Assembly: GCA_951812925.1 (NCBI GenBank)
Contig: OX638371.1
Coordinates: 1,426,001 to 1,490,000 of the forward strand
Reading direction: 5' to 3'
Source: Calliopum simillimum
Taxonomy: Eukaryota > Arthropoda > Insecta > Diptera > Lauxaniidae
Length of the DNA stretch: 64,000 nt
Position numbers and translations under genes: made by a program. Below, one piece after another: positions 14,096-59,085 of this stretch. Under the pieces are notes generated by a model. It did not search any database. It had not been told where the DNA came from and saw only the letters and a program-made list of their open reading frames with translations. How positions within the stretch are numbered: the stretch's first letter is position 1; each line of letters opens with the position of its first letter.

Positions 14096-14872
14096 TATAC
14101 TCTACTCCCATAGTATATTCACTTTGTCCTTCCGTTTATAACGCAGAGAAGGAGGCGTGGCAGATATAGAAAAGTATATATATTCTTGATCACGGTCACC
14201 TCCTCAGTCGATATAGCCATGTCCGTCTGTCTGACTGGCTGGGTGGATGGCTGGGTGGATGTGAAAATTCCTTTTTTTTTTGGAAAACTGAGCAAGATAA
14301 TTCAATGCCTTCGTCGTCAAAGTTAGCTCGAGAGATTGAAAATGAGCAAAATCGGTCAACAGACATGCCTACCGCCCATACAAAAAATATATTCAAAATG
14401 CAACTATAGGGGTATTTATCACGACAATGCAACCAAAATACACATAAATACTGCAAATTTGTAAGCGCCAGTTCTGAGAAAAACTGGGCAAATTTGGACA
14501 AGAGGGCGTGGCACCTCCCATATAAGCAAAAGCTTCAAAATGCTATACTGACAGAGTATTTTGAGATAATTCAACAAAATTTCACTCAAATACTAAAGAC
14601 TATAAATGCACACTCTAAGCTAAAACCAGATGAACTCGGACAAGAGGGCGTGGCACCTTCCATATAAGCAAAAGCTTCAAAACGCTATACTGAAAACGTT
14701 TTTTGAGATAATCCAACCAAATTTTGCTCAGACACTAAGAATGCAAGCTCTGAGCAAAAACTGGGTGGACTCGGACAAGAGGGCGTGAAACCTTCCATAG
14801 AAGCAAAATTTTCAAAATACTGCAGTGTAGGGTATTTGTTTTTTGTCCTGGCCAAAGGCTGCACCCTTACTG
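14096..14872. mobile_element. Interspersed repeat with three internal 140-bp units, full copy
   Basis: The left end carries the small palindrome TATACTC...AGTATA (about 14098-14117), followed by CGATATAGCCATGTCCGTCT (about 14206), wording that is typical of dispersed repeats in flies. The body contains GGACAAGAGGGCGTG starts at 14496, 14638 and 14773, giving units of 142 and 135 bases. The end is near the ACCCTTACTGGTT word (about 14862-14874). A second copy lacking the left 170 bases is at 58467-59085. It is non-coding and the superfamily is undetermined. Confidence 0.7.
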
Positions 14873-22906: not shown

Positions 22907-25645
22907 TGAATAAATGAATAAATGAATAAATGAATAAATGAATAAATGAATAAATGAATAAATGAATAAATGAATAAATGAATAAATGAATAAATGAATA
23001 AATGAATAAATGAATAAATGAATAAATGAATAAATGAATAAATGAATAAATAAATAAATGAATAAATGAATAAATGAATAAATGAATAAATGAATAAATG
23101 AATGAATGAATAGATGAATAAATGAATAAATGAATAAATGAATAAATGAATAAATGAATAAATGAATAAATGAATAAATGAATAAATGAATAAATGAATA
23201 AATGAATAAATGAATAAATGAATAAATGAATAAATGAATAAATGAATAAATGAATAAATGAATAAATGAATAAATGAATAAATGAATAAATGAATAAATG
23301 AATAAATGAATAAATGAATAAATGAATAAATGAATAAATGAATAAATGAATAAATGAATAAATGAATAAATGAATAAATGAATAAATGAATAAATGAATA
23401 AATGAATAAATGAATAAATGAATAAATGAATAAATGAATAAATGAATAAATGAATAAATGAATAAATGAATAAATGAATAAATGAATAAATGAATAAATG
23501 AATAAATGAATAAATGAATAAATGAATAAATGAATAAATGAATAAATGAATAAATGAATAAATGAATAAATGAATAAATGAATAAATGAATAAATGAATA
23601 AATGAATAAATGAATAAATGAATAAATGAATAAATGAATAAATGAATAAATGAATAAATGAATAAATGAATAAATGAATAAATGAATAAATGAATAAATG
23701 AATAAATGAATAAATGAATAAATGAATAAATGAATAAATGAATAAATGAATAAATGAATAAATGAATAAATGAATAAATGAATAAATGAATTGATGAATA
23801 AATGAATAAATGAATAAATGAATAAATGATTAAATTAATAAATTAATAATTTAATAAATTAATAAATGATTAAAAGCATAAATGAATAAATGAATAAATG
23901 AATAAATGAATAAATGAATAAATGAATAAATGAATAAATGAATAAATGAATAAATGAATAAATGAATAAATGAATAAATGAATAAATGAATAAATGAATA
24001 AATGAATAAATGAATAAATGAATAAATGAATAAATGAATAAATGAATAAATGAATAAATGAATAAATGAATAAATGAATAAATGAATAAATGAATAAATG
24101 AATAAATGAATAAATGAATAAATGAATAAATGAATAAATGAATAAATGAATAAATGAATAAATGAATAAATGAATAAATGAATAAATGAATAAATGAATA
24201 AATGAATAAATGAATAAATGAATAAATGAATAAATGAATAAATGAATAAATGAATAAATGAATAAATGAATAAATGAATAAATGAATAAATGAATAAATG
24301 AATAAATGAATAAATGAATAAATGAATAAATGAATAAATGAATAAATGAATAAATGAATAAATGAATAAATGAATAAATGAATAAATGAATAAATGAATA
24401 AATGAATAAATGAATAAATGAATAAATGAATAATTGAATAAATGAATAAATGAATAAATGAATAAATGAATAAATGAATAAATGAATAAATGAATAAATG
24501 AATAAATGAATAAATGAATAAATGAATAAATGAATAAATGAATAAATGAATAAATAAATAAATGAATAAATGAATAAATGAATAAATGAATAAATGAATA
24601 AATGAATGAATGAATAGATGAATAAATGAATAAATGAATAAATGAATAAATGAATAAATGAATAAATGAATAAATGAATAAATGAATAAATGAATAAATG
24701 AATAAATGAATAAATGAATAAATGAATAAATGAATAAATGAATAAATGAATAAATGAATAAATGAATAAATGAATAAATGAATAAATGAATAAATGAATA
24801 AATGAATAAATGAATAAATGAATAAATGAATAAATGAATAAATGAATAAATGAATAAATGAATAAATGAATAAATGAATAAATGAATAAATGAATAAATG
24901 AATAAATGAATAAATGAATAAATGAATAAATGAATAAATGAATAAATGAATAAATGAATAAATGAATAAATGAATAAATGAATAAATGAATAAATGAATA
25001 AATGAATAAATGAATAAATGAATAAATGAATAAATGAATAAATGAATAAATGAATAAATGAATAAATGAATAAATGAATAAATGAATAAATGAATAAATG
25101 AATAAATGAATAAATGAATAAATGAATAAATGAATAAATGAATAAATGAATAAATGAATAAATGAATAAATGAATAAATGAATAAATGAATAAATGAATA
25201 AATGAATAAATGAATAAATGAATAAATGAATAAATGAATAAATAAATAAATGAATCAATGAATAAATGAATAAATGAATAAAGGAATAAATGAATAAATG
25301 AATAAATGAATAAATGAATAAATGAATGAATGAATAGATGAATAAATAAATAAATGAATAAATGAATAAATGAATAAATGAATAAATGAATAAATGAATA
25401 AATGAATAAATGAATAAATGAATAAATGAATAAATGAATAAATGAATAAATGAATAAATGAATAAATGAATAAATGAAAAAATGAATAAATGAATAAATG
25501 AATAAATGAATAAATGAATAAATGAATTGATGAATAAATGAATAAATGAATAAATGATTAAATTAATAAATTAGTAATTTAATATATTAATAAATGATTA
25601 AAAGCATAAATGAATAAATGAATTAATTAATAAATGAAAAAATAA
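22907..25645. repeat. 2.74-kb TGAATAAA octamer array
   Basis: There are about 340 tandem copies of an 8-base unit, nearly all identical. Rare variants mark internal duplication: TAGATG at 23111, 24615 and 25335; TTGATG at 23791 and 25527; and a 56-base AT-rich interruption at about 23829 and again at 25556 with few differences. Because 8 is not a multiple of 3 and TTTATTCA contains no stop, all three minus-strand frames read as the same 8-residue cycle. The long Phe/Ile/His-rich frame is therefore an artefact. Confidence 0.95.
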
Positions 25646-34041: not shown

Positions 34042-34525
34042 AACTAAAACAATCAATATTTAATGGAATAACTCCTGTTTTTTATAACAGCAGTACATAT
34101 TTATGGCATGGATGCGATAAAACTATTTTCAAATGAGTGCGGAACGTCCTGTTACCGTTTTTAAACTTCATTTAAGAACTCATCCTGTTTTCTAAATTTT
34201 AGATTGCATAATAAGCAATGCATTTTCGTGACTTGACGATTTCATTGGGTTTAGATCTGGCGACTCCGCGGGGCATTGATGCACATCAATATTTTGTCAT
34301 TTTATCCAATCTTTTACCACTTTCGACGTGTGCTTAGGGTTGTTATCATGCAGGAATATCCAGTTTAGTGTCATTTTCCAAATTGCATATGGCATCATAG
34401 TATTTTTTAGTATGTCTTTATAATCATTAGACTCCATTATGCCTTCAACACTTTCAACCTCAACCTCTATGCTAGACAGTTCCTCTTGTATTTTTCGGGC
34501 TTAGCCATTCCCTCCTTGGTCTTTT
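34042..34525 (-). pseudogene. Tc1-like transposase, C-terminal half, inverted copy
   Basis: The minus-strand reading contains LHDNNPKHTSKVVKDWIK (second catalytic Asp), HQCPAESPDLNPM (third-residue motif, broken by a one-base loss just after it) and a C-terminus ending TAVIKNRSYSIKY and a stop. It lacks about 60 bases around VWGCFS that the other copy keeps. It is frameshifted and cannot encode an enzyme. Confidence 0.8.
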
Positions 34526-34526
34526 C

Positions 34527-34912
34527 ACAAGACTTTTTCCATCTTTTCTGACGAGCCCAAGTTTAATTTATGCGGATCGAGTGGTAACAGTCTAATGAGA
34601 AGACAAAGGAGAGAAAGGCTATGCCCGAAATATACAAGAGCAACTGTCTACCATAGAGGTTGTAGAATCATGGTCTGGGGATGCTTCTCTGTGCAAGGAA
34701 TCGGTCCAATTCAAAGTGTTGAAGGCATAATGGAGTCTAATGATTATAAAGACATACTAAAAAATACTATGATGCCATATGCAATTTGGAAAATGACACT
34801 AAACTGGATATTCCTGCATGATAACAACCCTAAGCACACGTCGAAAGTGGTAAAAGATTGGATAAAATGGCAAAATATTGATGTTCATCAATGCCCCGCA
34901 AATGTTTTGCAC
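34527..34912 (+). pseudogene. Tc1-like transposase, middle part, direct copy
   Basis: The plus-strand frame shows FSDEPKFNL (first catalytic Asp, 34550-34552), VWGCFSVQGIGPI, and LHDNNPKHTSKVVKDWIK (second catalytic Asp, about 34830). It breaks off at HQCPA, where it runs straight into the right terminal repeat, so the third catalytic residue is missing. Open from 34595 to the terminal repeat without a stop. It is a relic of DDE integrase-fold transposase. Confidence 0.82.
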
Positions 34913-35118
34913 AGCCAATATCGATACGTTTTTATATTGCACTTAAGTTTTAGCTTTGTATTAGTGATGTATGGACTTTATATTTTTGTTTTATAAACAA
35001 CAATATAAATGACATAAGACCACATACCAAGTATTTTTTTTGCATCTGTTTTAGTGGCCGAAAATTGGTGATTCAGTTTCAAGTGTTTTTGGTTGCAAAT
35101 GTTATGCACAGCACTGTA

Positions 35119-38904: not shown

Positions 38905-40254
38905 GCCCAGGAAAATAAGACGAAAAAAGAGCTTCTGTGCGAAAAAATTCCCAGTGGAAATTTTTCACCGGAATTGTCTTTATTTATGCATGATACACAA
39001 ACTGTGAAAAGTCCATTGCAAAGTCGTGTGCGCATAAAAAGTTATTCGGGCTCAAAGGTCGCTAAAATCAGTTTATTGCAAATATCTCGCTAATGCTAAC
39101 TTTTACAGAAAAATGTTGGTCTCCAATTTTGTAGCACAGGAAATTTCCTACAAAAATACTTTAAAAGTATTTGCGTAAGACTTCTAGTTTAGGAGATCAC
39201 CCAATTTAAAAAGTTGTTAACAGTTATGATATGAAATACTACCTATGAGTTCATATTAAAATATCTTACTTTTTAAATTGCAGTAACTCTTCAATGAGAA
39301 GTTGTACAAACAAAATTAAAATGCCGTTTGAAAGATAATTTAATTTTCTATATACCGTACAAAATTTTTTTTTCGAACGGCTCATGACCTTAAAAATATT
39401 CTTGAGTAACCGTTAAGGCTTCGAAATTACTGGTTTTTTAAGGATATCTGCGAATTGGTAAGTACTACGATAAAAAGTAATGGGACCAAATTTGTAGAGA
39501 ATTACTAGATCTACAAAAAATAAACTATATGTGTACACATAGAAGTAACCGTATAGAAGATATTCAATAGAAACCGGTTTTTGGCATTTTAAGGGTTTTT
39601 TTAGAATATCTTCCAAACGGTTACTTCTATGTGTACACATATTGCTTATTTTTGTAGATCTTGTAATTCTCTACAAATTTGGTCCAATTACTTTTTATCG
39701 TAGTACTTACCAATTCGCAGATATCCTTAAAAAACCAGTAATTTCGAAGCCTTAACGGTTTTTCAAGAATATTTTTAAGGTCATGAGCCGTTCGAAAAAA
39801 AAAATTTTGTACGGTATATAGAAAATTAAATTATCTTTCAAACGGAATTTTAAATTTGTTTGTACAACTTCTCATTGAAGAGTTATTGCAATTTAAAAAG
39901 TAAGATATTTTAATATGAACTCATAGGTAGTATTTCATATCATAACTGTTAACAACTTTTTAAATTGGGTGATCTCCTAAACTAGAAGTCTTACGCAAAT
40001 ACTTTTAAAGTATTTTTGTAGGAAATTTCCTGTGCTACAAAATTGGAGACCAACATTTTTCTGTAAAAGTTAGCATTAGCGAGATATTTGCAATAAACTG
40101 ATTTTAGCGACCTTTGAGCCCGAATAACTTTTTATGCGCACACGACTTTGCAATGGACTTTTCACAGTTTGTGTATCATGCATAAATAAAGACAATTCCG
40201 GTGAAAAATTTCCACTGGGAATTTTTTCGCAGAAAATGTCTTATTTTCCTGGGC
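38905..40254. mobile_element. 1.35-kb near-perfect palindrome flanked by TA
   Basis: Arms of about 660 bases (38905-39570 and 39595-40254) are almost exact inverted copies. The ends read GCCCAGGAAAATAAGAC and its complement, with TA at 38903-38904 and 40255-40256. The centre, near 39580, has ATGTGTACACATAGAAGTAA and its complement around a short spacer. There is no coding capacity. High arm identity implies recent formation or ongoing gene conversion. Confidence 0.85.
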
Positions 40255-49859: not shown

Positions 49860-50045
49860 CTTATGTATGAATGTAACGCATAGTGAAAGCATAGTGCCAA
49901 AATGCAACGTAAATATCTCCATGACTTTTCCGACTCTTTGATTCCTTACTCCAAAGAACTTTTCCAGTTGACTTTTGGTCTACAACGTTCTCTGTTGTCT
50001 TGTGGATTTTAAATGGACCGTCCTTATGCCTGAGATCAAACACGC
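49860..50045 (-). pseudogene. RTE-like non-LTR retrotransposon, decayed 3' end
   Basis: About 180 bases align by eye with the 3' end of the better-preserved relic at 61284-61640. On the minus strand both share ATCCACAA, an AACTGGAAAA word, and the order of short words leading to a CATTCATACATAAG-type tail. The coding frame is broken. The match reaches the CGGCG duplication of the Transib-like element, so that element may have landed in or beside this relic. Confidence 0.5.
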
Positions 50046-50050
50046 CGGCG

Positions 50051-50078
50051 CACAGTGTCGCGAGTGCTGCCAAAAGGG
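50051..50078 (+). promoter_or_regulatory. Left terminus, 12-RSS-like transposase recognition site
   Basis: Heptamer CACAGTG (50051-50057), then exactly 12 nt, then the A-rich nonamer-like CCAAAAGGG (50070-50078). The nonamer match to ACAAAAACC is partial (5 of 9). Recognition by a Transib transposase is inferred. Confidence 0.55.
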
Positions 50079-51262
50079 TCAAAGTTAAAGTCGAAATATG
50101 TATAAACTCATCAAGGATGGAATATTCTTAAGTATACTTAATCTAATAGCAATTTAAAAAAAAAAAAAATAATATATCTTAATAGCATAGTTATACGAGC
50201 CACGCAAACTTAGAATTTTGGATAGATAGAATAAATGCCACAAAATAATAAAATTTCGTTCCATGATTCTTAAATCTAAAGCAGGCCTATTTTACTAAAT
50301 ACCTTAGTTAAAACTAACTTTTAGGAATAAATAACATTTTTCCTATGTAGTAGAGCAATTTTTGAGCAGATTTTTGTATTAACCTTTTGTTTACAGTTAT
50401 TTTATTGGACATATGTTTTTTTGTTTATTTGTGAATTTTAAAGAAAACTTTGGGAGACCATAAAAAAAGAATGACGCAAAAGACCCTGTTGCCTTAGTTA
50501 GAAACAAAAGAAAAAAATGACAAAAAAACAAGTCCCGAAAAGAAGGTAAAAATTTGCTTAATTTTTATTGTATCAATGCAATTTTGATTTGCGCAGAAAG
50601 AAAATGTTTGAAATTAAAGATTAACATTGATATTTTGAAGGAAAACCAGTTGCTTATGCATATTTGTTGGCGATGAATTCTACCGCAATAAAAAACATAA
50701 CGTTCCCAACGAAATATTTTAAGAAGTTTCTTGTAGCGGAAGTTAGTGGGTAAAATATTAAAATGCAATCACCCTTTTCGAGTATTTTCTGTCTTATTTC
50801 TGAATCCATTTTAAAATTACTTAAATAAAGTATCTACCATGGTGAACATAGCCACTAAATATGTGTAACGTTCCCAACATTTTTTAATCAAAAATCATAA
50901 GTTATATTTTTCTACTAAAATTTCTTCTGAATCCACGCGATGAGCTGTGTTGAAAGGGATAGAAATTCCTTACAATAATTTAAATCAACCAATAAGAACT
51001 GGATTGAAGAGGAAGTTATGGACATAAATCACGTTAATTGCTATTTTGAGATCTATCCAAGTGCATAGGATATCACAAATATTTCGTTCTTTACAGGCTT
51101 TTTGAAGCTTCCGAAACAACCTAGTAACATTCTTGTAACATGTACCAAATGCATCTAGCTTAAGCCGTTCGGCTACCTGTCAGGGCTCAACATAAAAATC
51201 TGAAAAAACAGAAAAAAATTTATTTTCGATTTCATTTTTTTTTGTTGAATCCAGACTGGTGG

Positions 51263-51501
51263 CCATACGAATTTAGCTAGATGCATGAAATTTGGTACAG
51301 ATAACGTCAATATTACTAAGCTGCCTGAGACTAAAATTGGACGTGATCGGTTAATCTCCACGCCTACTTCCCATACAACGTTTTAACTAGCATATATGGG
51401 AGGTAGGCGTGAACATTAACCGATCACGCTCAATTTTAATCCTGATCAGAAAATGGCTCTCAGTATTATCTGTACCAAGTTTCATGTAGATAGCTTTATC
51501 C
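51263..51501. repeat. Inverted repeat inside the Transib-like element
   Basis: The arms pair over AGCTAGATGCATGAAATTTG (left) and its near-complement at the right end, and around TGATCGGTTAAT...GCCTACTTCCCATA near the centre (about 51385). It could be an older inserted foldback element or an original part of the transposon. Confidence 0.65.
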
Positions 51502-52883
51502 TTTTGGGAGAAATCGTAATTTCAAAAAAAAAATATGTATCGAAGTCTTGGAGCAAAAAATTTGTAATGTAGGAATGAATTATTCACATATTTTCATCTT
51601 TATGGATGTTTGGACTGTTTGGCTGTATTTGCCCTCAATTTATTTATGGAAATTCGTACGCATAACGTTCCCAACGCTTTTGCGTGACGTAACCAACGTT
51701 GCTTTAATGTCTGTAAGTCCACCAATAATATTTTTTTCACCACAATTACCATTCCAATCTTAGCTTTGATCCTTTATCTTGATATTATAGAAGATGTTCG
51801 GGAAAATACATTACTAGATTCGCAGACTTTTTAGAAAATGTGCACTGACCTCAAAAGTTGTTGGAAAAAAAAAAACAACGTTCCCAACGGCACTTAAACT
51901 CTTATAACTTCTAAGCCATAAGCGATAGACAAAAATTTTGTTCCTACGAAATATTGGCCTTAGGGAGCCTTATTACATGCACTTAAGATATCATGATGTT
52001 TGATTATTTTTCAAAGAGATATGGGCAAAAATGTGCGTGCGAACGTAACGTTCCCAACGGTGGCCGTGCCCATATGAAAAAAAAGTGCCCCAATGTGCCC
52101 CAATTTTTTTTTCCTTAATTTTCTAAAGTGACCTCGATTAAAATTATATAAAAAATTAATATTCTTAGGAGTGTAAAATTAAATATCTTAAAGAAAAAAA
52201 TTGCTGCGGGCTTGAAACTTGACACAGTTGTTTATTGGACCAGAGTCACCTTACAAAAAAAAGTTCCTTAGCTCAACAGGGGAATCAACCCCCTTTTTTG
52301 GAGGCTTAAAAATCAAAAAAGTAATTTTTTGACAAATAACTTAAAAAATGTTAGTCGAAAAAAAATTTTTATCAAAAAAATTAAAGCTGATGCAATTTTC
52401 CACATTTTTTAAGAGTCCTTTTTTATCAAAATTGTAAATATGTATATCATATTAACTTTGAACTCTAACGTCCATTATTTTTTTGTTTCTTAACCGATCA
52501 GAATAGATCAAAAAGTATTTTAAAGCTTGAAATTTCATCTTTTTAATTAGCTTTTAAATCCAATATTTTAAGTAAAAGTTTTTTTTTTACTTTCTAAAAT
52601 GAGTGAATTTCCTAAATTGAAATATTTCACTTTAATTTTAAATTATATCTGCTATAACTTTTTTGCTTCTTATCCGATCGTAAAAAACCAAAAAGCATTT
52701 AAAAGGTTAATATTTTAAATTTTTAATTGTATAAAAAACGTTTAAAAAAATCACCCGATACTTATACTTTTGTACTTGGAGTCGGTTTAAAAAGGGGCGG
52801 ACCACGCTCATTGTTTAAAATTTTCATAATCTTTACAAAAAGCATCACTGTGCAAAATTTTATCAAAATCGGATAACGTTTAC

Positions 52884-52922
52884 TAGTTTTGGCCGCTCTA
52901 TATATGGGCTCGCGACACTGTG
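52884..52922 (-). promoter_or_regulatory. Right terminus, 23-RSS-like transposase recognition site
   Basis: Read inward on the minus strand: CACAGTG (52922-52916), exactly 23 nt, then CCAAAACTA (52892-52884). The block shares CCAAAA with the left terminus but stands 11 nt deeper. Confidence 0.55.
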
Positions 52923-52977
52923 CGGCGTCGAGGTTCTTGCAAATAAAAACACAACTGTTTCAGTTTTACTTCGTTGC

Positions 52978-58466: not shown

Positions 58467-59085
58467 TTTTTGGGAAAACTGAGCAAGATAATTCAATGAA
58501 ATTTGGTACGCTGCCTCCGTCGTCAAAGTTAGCTCGGGGGATTGAAAATGAGCAAAATCGGTCAACGGACACGCCTACCGCCCATACAAAAATTATATTC
58601 AAAATGCAATTTTAGGAGTATTTTTCACGACAATGCAACCACAATACATATAAGTACTACGAATTGTAAGCGCAAGCTCTGATAAAAATTTGAGCGAATT
58701 CGGACAAGAGGGCGTGGCACCTCCCATATAAGCAAAAGCTTCAAAACGCTATACTGAAAGCGTTTTTTGAGATATTCGAACCAAATTTGACTCAGACACT
58801 AAGAATTATAAATGAAAGCACTCAGCAAAAATTGGGTGAAATCAGACAAGGGGGCGTGGCACCTCCCATATAAGCAAAAGATTCAAAATGCTATACTGAA
58901 AGAGTTTTTTGAGATAATCCAACTAAATTTCATTTTGACACTAAAAACTATAAATGCAAGCTCTGAACAAAAACTGGGTGTACTCGGACAAGAGGGCGTG
59001 GCACCTCCTATATAAGCAAACTTTTCAAAATACTGCAGTGTAGGGTATTTATTTTTTGGCCAGGCCAAAATTTACACCCTTACTA
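58467..59085. mobile_element. Interspersed repeat with three internal 140-bp units, left-truncated copy
   Basis: It matches 14270-14872 from GGAAAACTGAGCAAGATAAT onward, including AAAGTTAGCTCG and GGTCAAC-GACA-GCCTACCG. Unit starts (GGACAAGAGGGCGTG or variant) are at 58702, 58844 and 58986, spaced exactly 142. The ACCCTTACTAGTT end is kept. The left end of the full copy is missing. Confidence 0.75.

Follow-up and report, generated by a model that had tools for sequence, protein, structure and literature searches.

Transib elements are the transposon relatives of RAG1, the enzyme that cuts antibody genes. In the parts of PMC8289069 drawn upon here, most Transibs are described as having symmetric ends, and a GC bias of the target sites is given as a feature common to Transib and RAG. 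HzTransib from Helicoverpa zea (PDB 6pqn and five more entries) displays heptamer-like ends, as does the element that we describe here; according to the same portions of that account, however, its ends are symmetric and show little or no nonamer similarity, whereas the present element is asymmetric and devoid of a transposase. The vertebrate 12RSS and 23RSS, as presented in those portions of the source, have a CACAGTG heptamer consensus identical to the heptamer found here and are alike in having spacers of 12 and 23 bp. They differ in their nonamer, which is ACAAAAACC as against CCAAAAGGG and CCAAAACTA here, and in that both signals of the present element lie on one transposon and not on antibody gene segments.

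A 12/23 asymmetry of the ends is on record for Transib5 of Drosophila melanogaster and for Transib2, N1, N2 and N3 of Anopheles gambiae (PMC8355894, citing Kapitonov and Jurka 2005). In the excerpt of that work, these families have, like the one described here, a heptamer and a nonamer-like site separated by 12 and 23 bp (within 1 bp), and the 5-bp duplications of Transib are common to them and the present family. To judge from their names, N1-N3 are presumably also non-autonomous. These families are likened to ours by the description of their layout, whereas here the layout was counted copy by copy. In the same excerpt it is argued that V(D)J recombination may owe its origin to a Transib with 12/23 ends, and such Transibs are described as the only case of 12/23 transposition known apart from V(D)J.

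Two further groups of elements bear comparison with respect to target sites and size. In the excerpted results of PMC3276498, Drosophila hopper and transib2 generate 5-bp duplications (532 of 533 and 7 of 7 insertions, respectively), as is the case here, but their target is the palindromic CCANTGG, in contrast to the CGNCG-like sites of the present family. The Transib MITEs of insects (iMITEdb, PMC5199201; Helicoverpa, PMC9033116; both as excerpted) are gene-less and classed by their ends and duplications, as is ours. In the same excerpt of PMC5199201, Transib contributes fewer bases to insect MITEs than any other superfamily, and its members average about 482 bp with those above 800 bp excluded, as against a consensus of 1405 bp here. 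Since 12/23 Transibs have been reported before while most Transibs are symmetric, the family described below is a member of a rare known variant that is already in print. What is added here is a copy-by-copy count of the kept layout, in a genome that also contains transposases of this superfamily.

The element and its nested insertion

The window, i.e., the whole 64,000-nucleotide stretch of Calliopum simillimum DNA analysed here, contains at 50051-52922 what we read, with a probability of about 0.93, as one copy of an approximately 1.4-kb non-autonomous cut-and-paste Transib family that was interrupted by the later insertion of another repeat. The features of this locus are:

50046..50050, no strand: left target site duplication CGGCG, seen in the sequence; 20 of the 23 other two-ended copies likewise have identical 5-mers
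50051..50064, plus strand: left inverted end (TIR) CACAGTGTCGCGAG with the heptamer at 50051-50057, seen in the sequence and repeated genome-wide
50051..50505, plus strand: left part of the outer non-autonomous Transib element; 39 other copies listed, at 89-93% identity
50058..50069, plus strand: 12-bp spacer of the left end, 12 bp long in 23 of 23 two-ended copies
50070..50078, plus strand: left nonamer-like site CCAAAAGGG, the CCAAAA of which belongs to the conserved 10-bp block GCNGCCAAAA (50066-50075)
50506..52075, plus strand: nested, unrelated dispersed repeat, cut short on its 5′ side, with genome copies at 90-95% identity
52076..52922, plus strand: right part of the outer non-autonomous Transib element, with copies in the genome
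52884..52892, minus strand: right nonamer-like site CCAAAACTA, the CCAAAA of which belongs to the conserved block GCGGCCAAAA (52887-52896)
52893..52915, minus strand: 23-bp spacer of the right end, 23 bp long in 21 of the 23 two-ended copies, the other 2 having 27 bp
52909..52922, minus strand: right TIR CACAGTGTCGCGAG with the heptamer at 52916-52922, seen in the sequence and in other copies
52923..52927, no strand: right target site duplication CGGCG, seen in the sequence

The 14-bp inverted ends CACAGTGTCGCGAG are perfect (50051-50064 on the plus and 52909-52922 on the minus strand), and a search of the rest of the window at up to 3 mismatches returned two further matches, both with 3 mismatches. 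When direct repeats of 1-12 bp were tried, the CGGCG on either side of the element fit at length 5 and trivially at length 2, with no fit for duplications of 3 or 4 bp. The chance of such a configuration was gauged by order-2 Markov simulation of the window with the satellite left out, counting pairs that carry as much information: an equally informative inverted repeat plus 5-bp direct repeat 0.1-10 kb apart occurred in 0 of 60 simulations, from which a chance probability of about 9e-5 was extrapolated for the pair of TIR and duplication. The inverted ends and flanking CGGCG of the original prediction, 2.87 kb apart, were found where it had placed them, and its view that chance is an unlikely origin is supported by these simulations. 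Its argument from the AT-rich interior is weak, because the GC content of the element (30.7%) is close to that of the whole window (33.2%), though below that of the 1-kb flanks (39.7% and 38.7%). In the real window, one other pair outscores that of the element and corresponds to a fold-back element (39367-39801). This fold-back element (~39340-39830) has inverted arms whose outer positions match at 98 of 100 (39367-39801) and which run outward, by eye, to TTAATTTTCTATATACCGTAC and GTACGGTATATAGAAAATTAA.

The 2.87-kb length of the element is due to the nested repeat; the earlier reading of the whole as a single 2.87-kb element, correct as to the ends and 5-mers, had overlooked this insertion. 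As a query in the own 690-Mb assembly, the full-length element matches only itself along its whole length. The 1.57-kb repeat at 50506-52075 has 35 other near-full-length places, at the identity given above, among the best 40 of 2292 candidates. Its sharp 3′ end is CGTGCCCATAT in 27 of the 29 fetched copies (L002-L030), with L009 and L028 differing, and all 29 extend 5′ past the point at which the window copy stops. Two of these copies, L023 and L024, have flanks in common and are probably one copy duplicated. The stretch 50506-52075 is a 5′-shortened insertion of a repeat unrelated to the outer Transib element. It includes a fold-back (51117-51510) and holds five AACGTTCCCAACG motifs, one of them with a mismatch. 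We rejected these motifs as transposase sites of the Transib element, as they belong to the nested repeat, and in the segment-pair comparison considered below we set aside the high-scoring pairs of neighbouring AACGTTCCCAACG sites, since their segments overlap. The outer element in the window is about 1.3 kb long (50051-50505 plus 52076-52922, totalling 1302 bp), which is about 100 bp short of the family consensus. A second CACAGTG in the same orientation is seen 70 bp inside the right end (52846-52852, minus strand) and is kept in that consensus.

Elsewhere in the window there is a 2.7-kb array of 342 copies of the 8-bp unit TGAATAAA with 97% matches (22907-25643), and two tandem arrays (14496-14818 and 58672-59031) have 142-bp units that resemble each other. 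One copy of the Transib family, L043, is inserted in a relative of this 142-bp-unit repeat, with related matches in the window and at other loci. Of the 114 open frames scanned in the window, one has a match to Pfam DDE_3 (E 1.1e-06), and from its sequence we take it to be a Tc1/mariner-like frame (34505-34993). For an RNase H remnant, 97 candidates yielded no homologue at E<=0.001.

Family copies and target sites

With window positions 50031-50500 as the query in the own 690-Mb assembly, 40 left ends including that of the window were scored as the best 40 of 306 candidates. The 39 others, among the matches listed, show 89-93% identity and start at the first base of the TIR or up to 13 bases outside it. 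Thirty loci were fetched, one of which is the window itself, and among the 29 others that were analysed both ends are present in 23 while 6 have no right end in reach; these family counts are lower bounds, since scoring was confined to the best 40 of 306 candidates and fetching to 30 loci. The consensus of the 23 two-ended copies and the window copy is 1405 bp long, its longest frame being 65 aa. Divergence from it is 2.3-5.8% in all but one of the 24 rows (4.6% for the window copy), the exception being L057 at 10.4%. The 14-bp TIR is perfect at the left end in 19 and at the right end in 18 of the 23 two-ended copies. The idea that the six left-only copies are longer, autonomous ones finds no support: transposase similarity is absent from L031-L060, which extend some 1.5 kb past the left part. 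Inside the window element there are only two Pfam matches, with E 0.17 and 0.25. The exact end pattern has 0 matches in collections of viral and prokaryote contigs; literature text matching the end sequence included no transposon title among the matches listed, and none paired Transib with CGGCG.

The 5-mers flanking the element are identical in 20 of the 23 two-ended copies, varied in sequence and mostly GC-rich; in the other three they are one base apart (L047 and L051) or wholly different (L050). The profile of the identical ones lies near CGNCG (n=20; C in 15 at position 1, G in 17 at position 2, C in 17 at position 4 and G in 14 at position 5), with exact CGNCG in 7 of the 20. Two of the copies, L032 and L041, have flanks about 92% similar and may be one insertion copied.

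To find unoccupied sites, we took the window copy and the 20 copies whose 5-mers are identical, joined the two flanks of each and compared them with all of the fetched sequence; the sites so recovered are paralogous and lie within repeats, and are not alleles. The joined flanks of L055 align to L058 over 237 bp at 91% with no gap and a single CGACG, and those of L053 to L071 over 190 bp at 83% with a single TGCCG. Those of L034 cross the junction against eight loci with a single CAGCG (L006, L012, L019, L026, L028, L039, L043 and L055), the left side of these alignments spanning only about 15-20 bp, and also align to one place in the window carrying CACGG instead of CAGCG. The joined flanks of L043 cross the junction against several related repeats, mostly with CGCCC in place of CGCTC, and L042 aligned to L083 with CGTCG in place of CGCCG. 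L045 and L039 show gaps or mismatches at the junction and were left out of the count. In the fetched sequence there is no spanning match for the window's own site or for most of the other copies.

Several elements of the original prediction can be assessed from these data. Further copies with the same ends do exist in the genome: 39 left ends besides that of the window were listed, and both ends are present in 23 of the 29 copies fetched. The proposal that the 5-bp repeats are target duplications agrees with the 20 of 23 identical but varied 5-mers and with the paralogous sites that have one 5-mer. The proposed non-autonomous nature is borne out by the lack of a transposase: the best Pfam match within the element has E 0.17, and no frame of the consensus exceeds 65 aa. 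The assignment to Transib draws support from the multicopy family, its CACAGTG ends and its 5-bp, mostly GC-rich duplications.

Layout and conservation of the ends

Reading inward, the left end consists of CACAGTG, 12 bp and CCAAAAGGG, and the right end of CACAGTG, 23 bp and CCAAAACTA. This layout was overlooked in the earlier Transib reading, which had recognized the heptamer ends correctly. Each nonamer-like site matches the nonamer ACAAAAACC at 5 of 9 positions. The CCAAAA cores lie within the blocks GCTGCCAAAA (left) and GCGGCCAAAA (right), offset by 11 bp between the ends, and in the consensus the identical block GCGGCCAAAA is present at both. The spacers are 12/23 in 21 of the 23 two-ended copies and 12/27 in the two others, L047 and L054, the latter of which has a 27-bp right spacer yet identical target duplications.

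The copies were selected through their left end and required to keep their right end, which biases the conservation counts at the ends. With this caveat, the interior has 4.44% substitutions per cell, whereas the two TIRs have 1.79% and 1.49%, the two 10-bp blocks 1.67% and 1.25%, and the 12 bp of the right spacer that were counted 3.47%. Both blocks together have 7 substitutions in 480 cells as compared to 21.3 expected at the interior rate (Poisson 3e-4), and both TIRs have 11 in 672 cells as compared to 29.8 expected at that rate (Poisson 7e-5). In the 12 bp of the right spacer there is no depletion, with 10 in 288 against 12.8 expected. Conservation extends to the 24 bp inward of the right block (9/550), so that the constrained part at the right may exceed the block, but not to the 35 bp inward of the left block (37/833). 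The depleted blocks and TIRs fit a role as sites that would need to stay intact for copies to move.

Transib transposases and alternative readings

The Pfam profile PF12940 (RAG1 family) matches 68 places in the genome at E<=1 as against none in any of 14 control genomes; all matches fall within profile positions 530-640 of 653, and one of the 68 passes the curated cut-off. Open frames of 670 and 692 aa match HzTransib (PDB 6pqn) over about 475 residues with E 8.6e-88 and 5.6e-114, respectively, and 20 further transposase loci, fetched on the 3′ side, all resemble these two long frames. The ends CACAGTGTCGCGAG were not found at the 23 transposase loci, covered over 3.5-4.5 kb in three cases and over about 1.7 kb on the 3′ side in 20. 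Autonomous Transibs typically occur in one or a few copies according to the excerpted text of PMC4411706, and a sample of 23 places may therefore easily miss the partner. The idea that a Transib transposase elsewhere drives the element fits the presence of Transib frames in the genome, though none with CACAGTGTCGCGAG turned up among the 23 loci.

Several further Transib families with CACAGTG ends are seen at L061-L083. The element L063, 2476 bp long, has the ends CACAGTGGCGACAT and CACACTGGCGACAT and the duplication CGCCG. Other Transib 3′ ends are CACAGTGATGCGATTAGTAC, CACAGTGGTAAAAACGATCA and a few more, mostly adjoining CGNCG-like 5-mers. By eye, 7 of 9 loci of the CACAGTGATGCGATTAGTAC family have an A-rich block (GAAAAAACT or similar) at a distance of 23 bp from the heptamer, the two others having it at 24 bp (L075) and 27 bp (L071), and L068 has GACAAAATT at 23 bp. 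On the same inspection, neither L063 nor the family of L069, L080 and L082 has a clear A-rich block at 23 bp. One end related to the 23-bp family, that of L078, is shortened, with an A-rich block at about 10 bp by eye. The 27-bp spacers of L047, L054 and L071 apparently arose by 4-bp insertions and belong to two different Transib families. Element ends were not found around L061 and L062, nor was a clear 5′ end of another Transib family found in the stretch L084.

The 12/23 spacing might be an accident of one founder copy, namely an 11-bp difference between its ends that has no role and was inherited by all copies, and we consider this possible but doubtful. As the copies stem from few sources, the 21 of 23 with a common layout count as few events, and two copies are 12/27. 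Moreover, the gapped similarity of the ends inward of the 14-bp TIR is no better than background, being equalled by 1501 of 20000 pairs drawn at random from the window and by 2628 of 20000 from the interior of the element, so that one copy is unable to settle the 12/23 layout. Such an accident does not readily account for the identity of GCGGCCAAAA at both ends of the consensus, at 12 and 23 bp, or for its conservation above that of the interior and the right spacer; a GC-rich 9-of-10 match occurred in only 35 of 6001 random pairs of window segments, with position not required. The other families of this genome point both ways: two lack a clear A-rich block at 23 bp, whereas another has one at 23 bp in 7 of its 9 3′ ends, with 24 and 27 bp in the others, by eye.

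The superfamily assignment has two competitors. The ends of CACTA/EnSpm and Chapaev elements also begin with CAC, and their target duplications are 2-3 bp or 4 bp long. That the element belongs with these is scarcely credible: the CAC start and the CG beside each end of the window copy, which fits a 2-bp duplication, have to be set against the misfit of 3-bp and 4-bp duplications at that copy, the exact 5-bp duplications in 20 of 23 copies and the paralogous sites with one 5-mer, and we rejected both on account of the 5-bp duplication length. A relative of the RAG-like (RAG1L-RAG2L, RAGL) transposons is likewise very improbable, even though 5-bp duplications and CAC ends are common to RAGL and Transib in the excerpt of PMC7204232. 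The protostome RAGL end consensus in that excerpt, CACTWMCAAACKTYKBB, has AAA at positions 8-10 whereas the element has TCG, and this misfit led us to reject the RAGL reading; the two transposases compared also match HzTransib far better than the RAG1 or RAG1L chains.

For the non-autonomous Transib element preferred here, we infer that a Transib transposase made elsewhere would bind the nonamer-like block and the heptamer, and would pair a 12-end with a 23-end, a preference that the conserved geometry alone suggests. It would then cut beside CAC and insert the element at CGNCG-like sites with a 5-bp stagger. We think it rather unlikely, but worth stating, that the 12/23 rule is enforced here by the Transib transposase alone, without RAG2. 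On that proposal the partner would accept no pairing other than that of a 12-end with a 23-end, 23-bp 3′ ends would occur in more than one Transib family, and the family would be a living model of the arrangement from which antibody gene assembly later arose. With its dozens of copies, mostly intact duplications, low divergence and transposase frames, the family offers natural statistics and testable substrates for the origin of the spacing rule.
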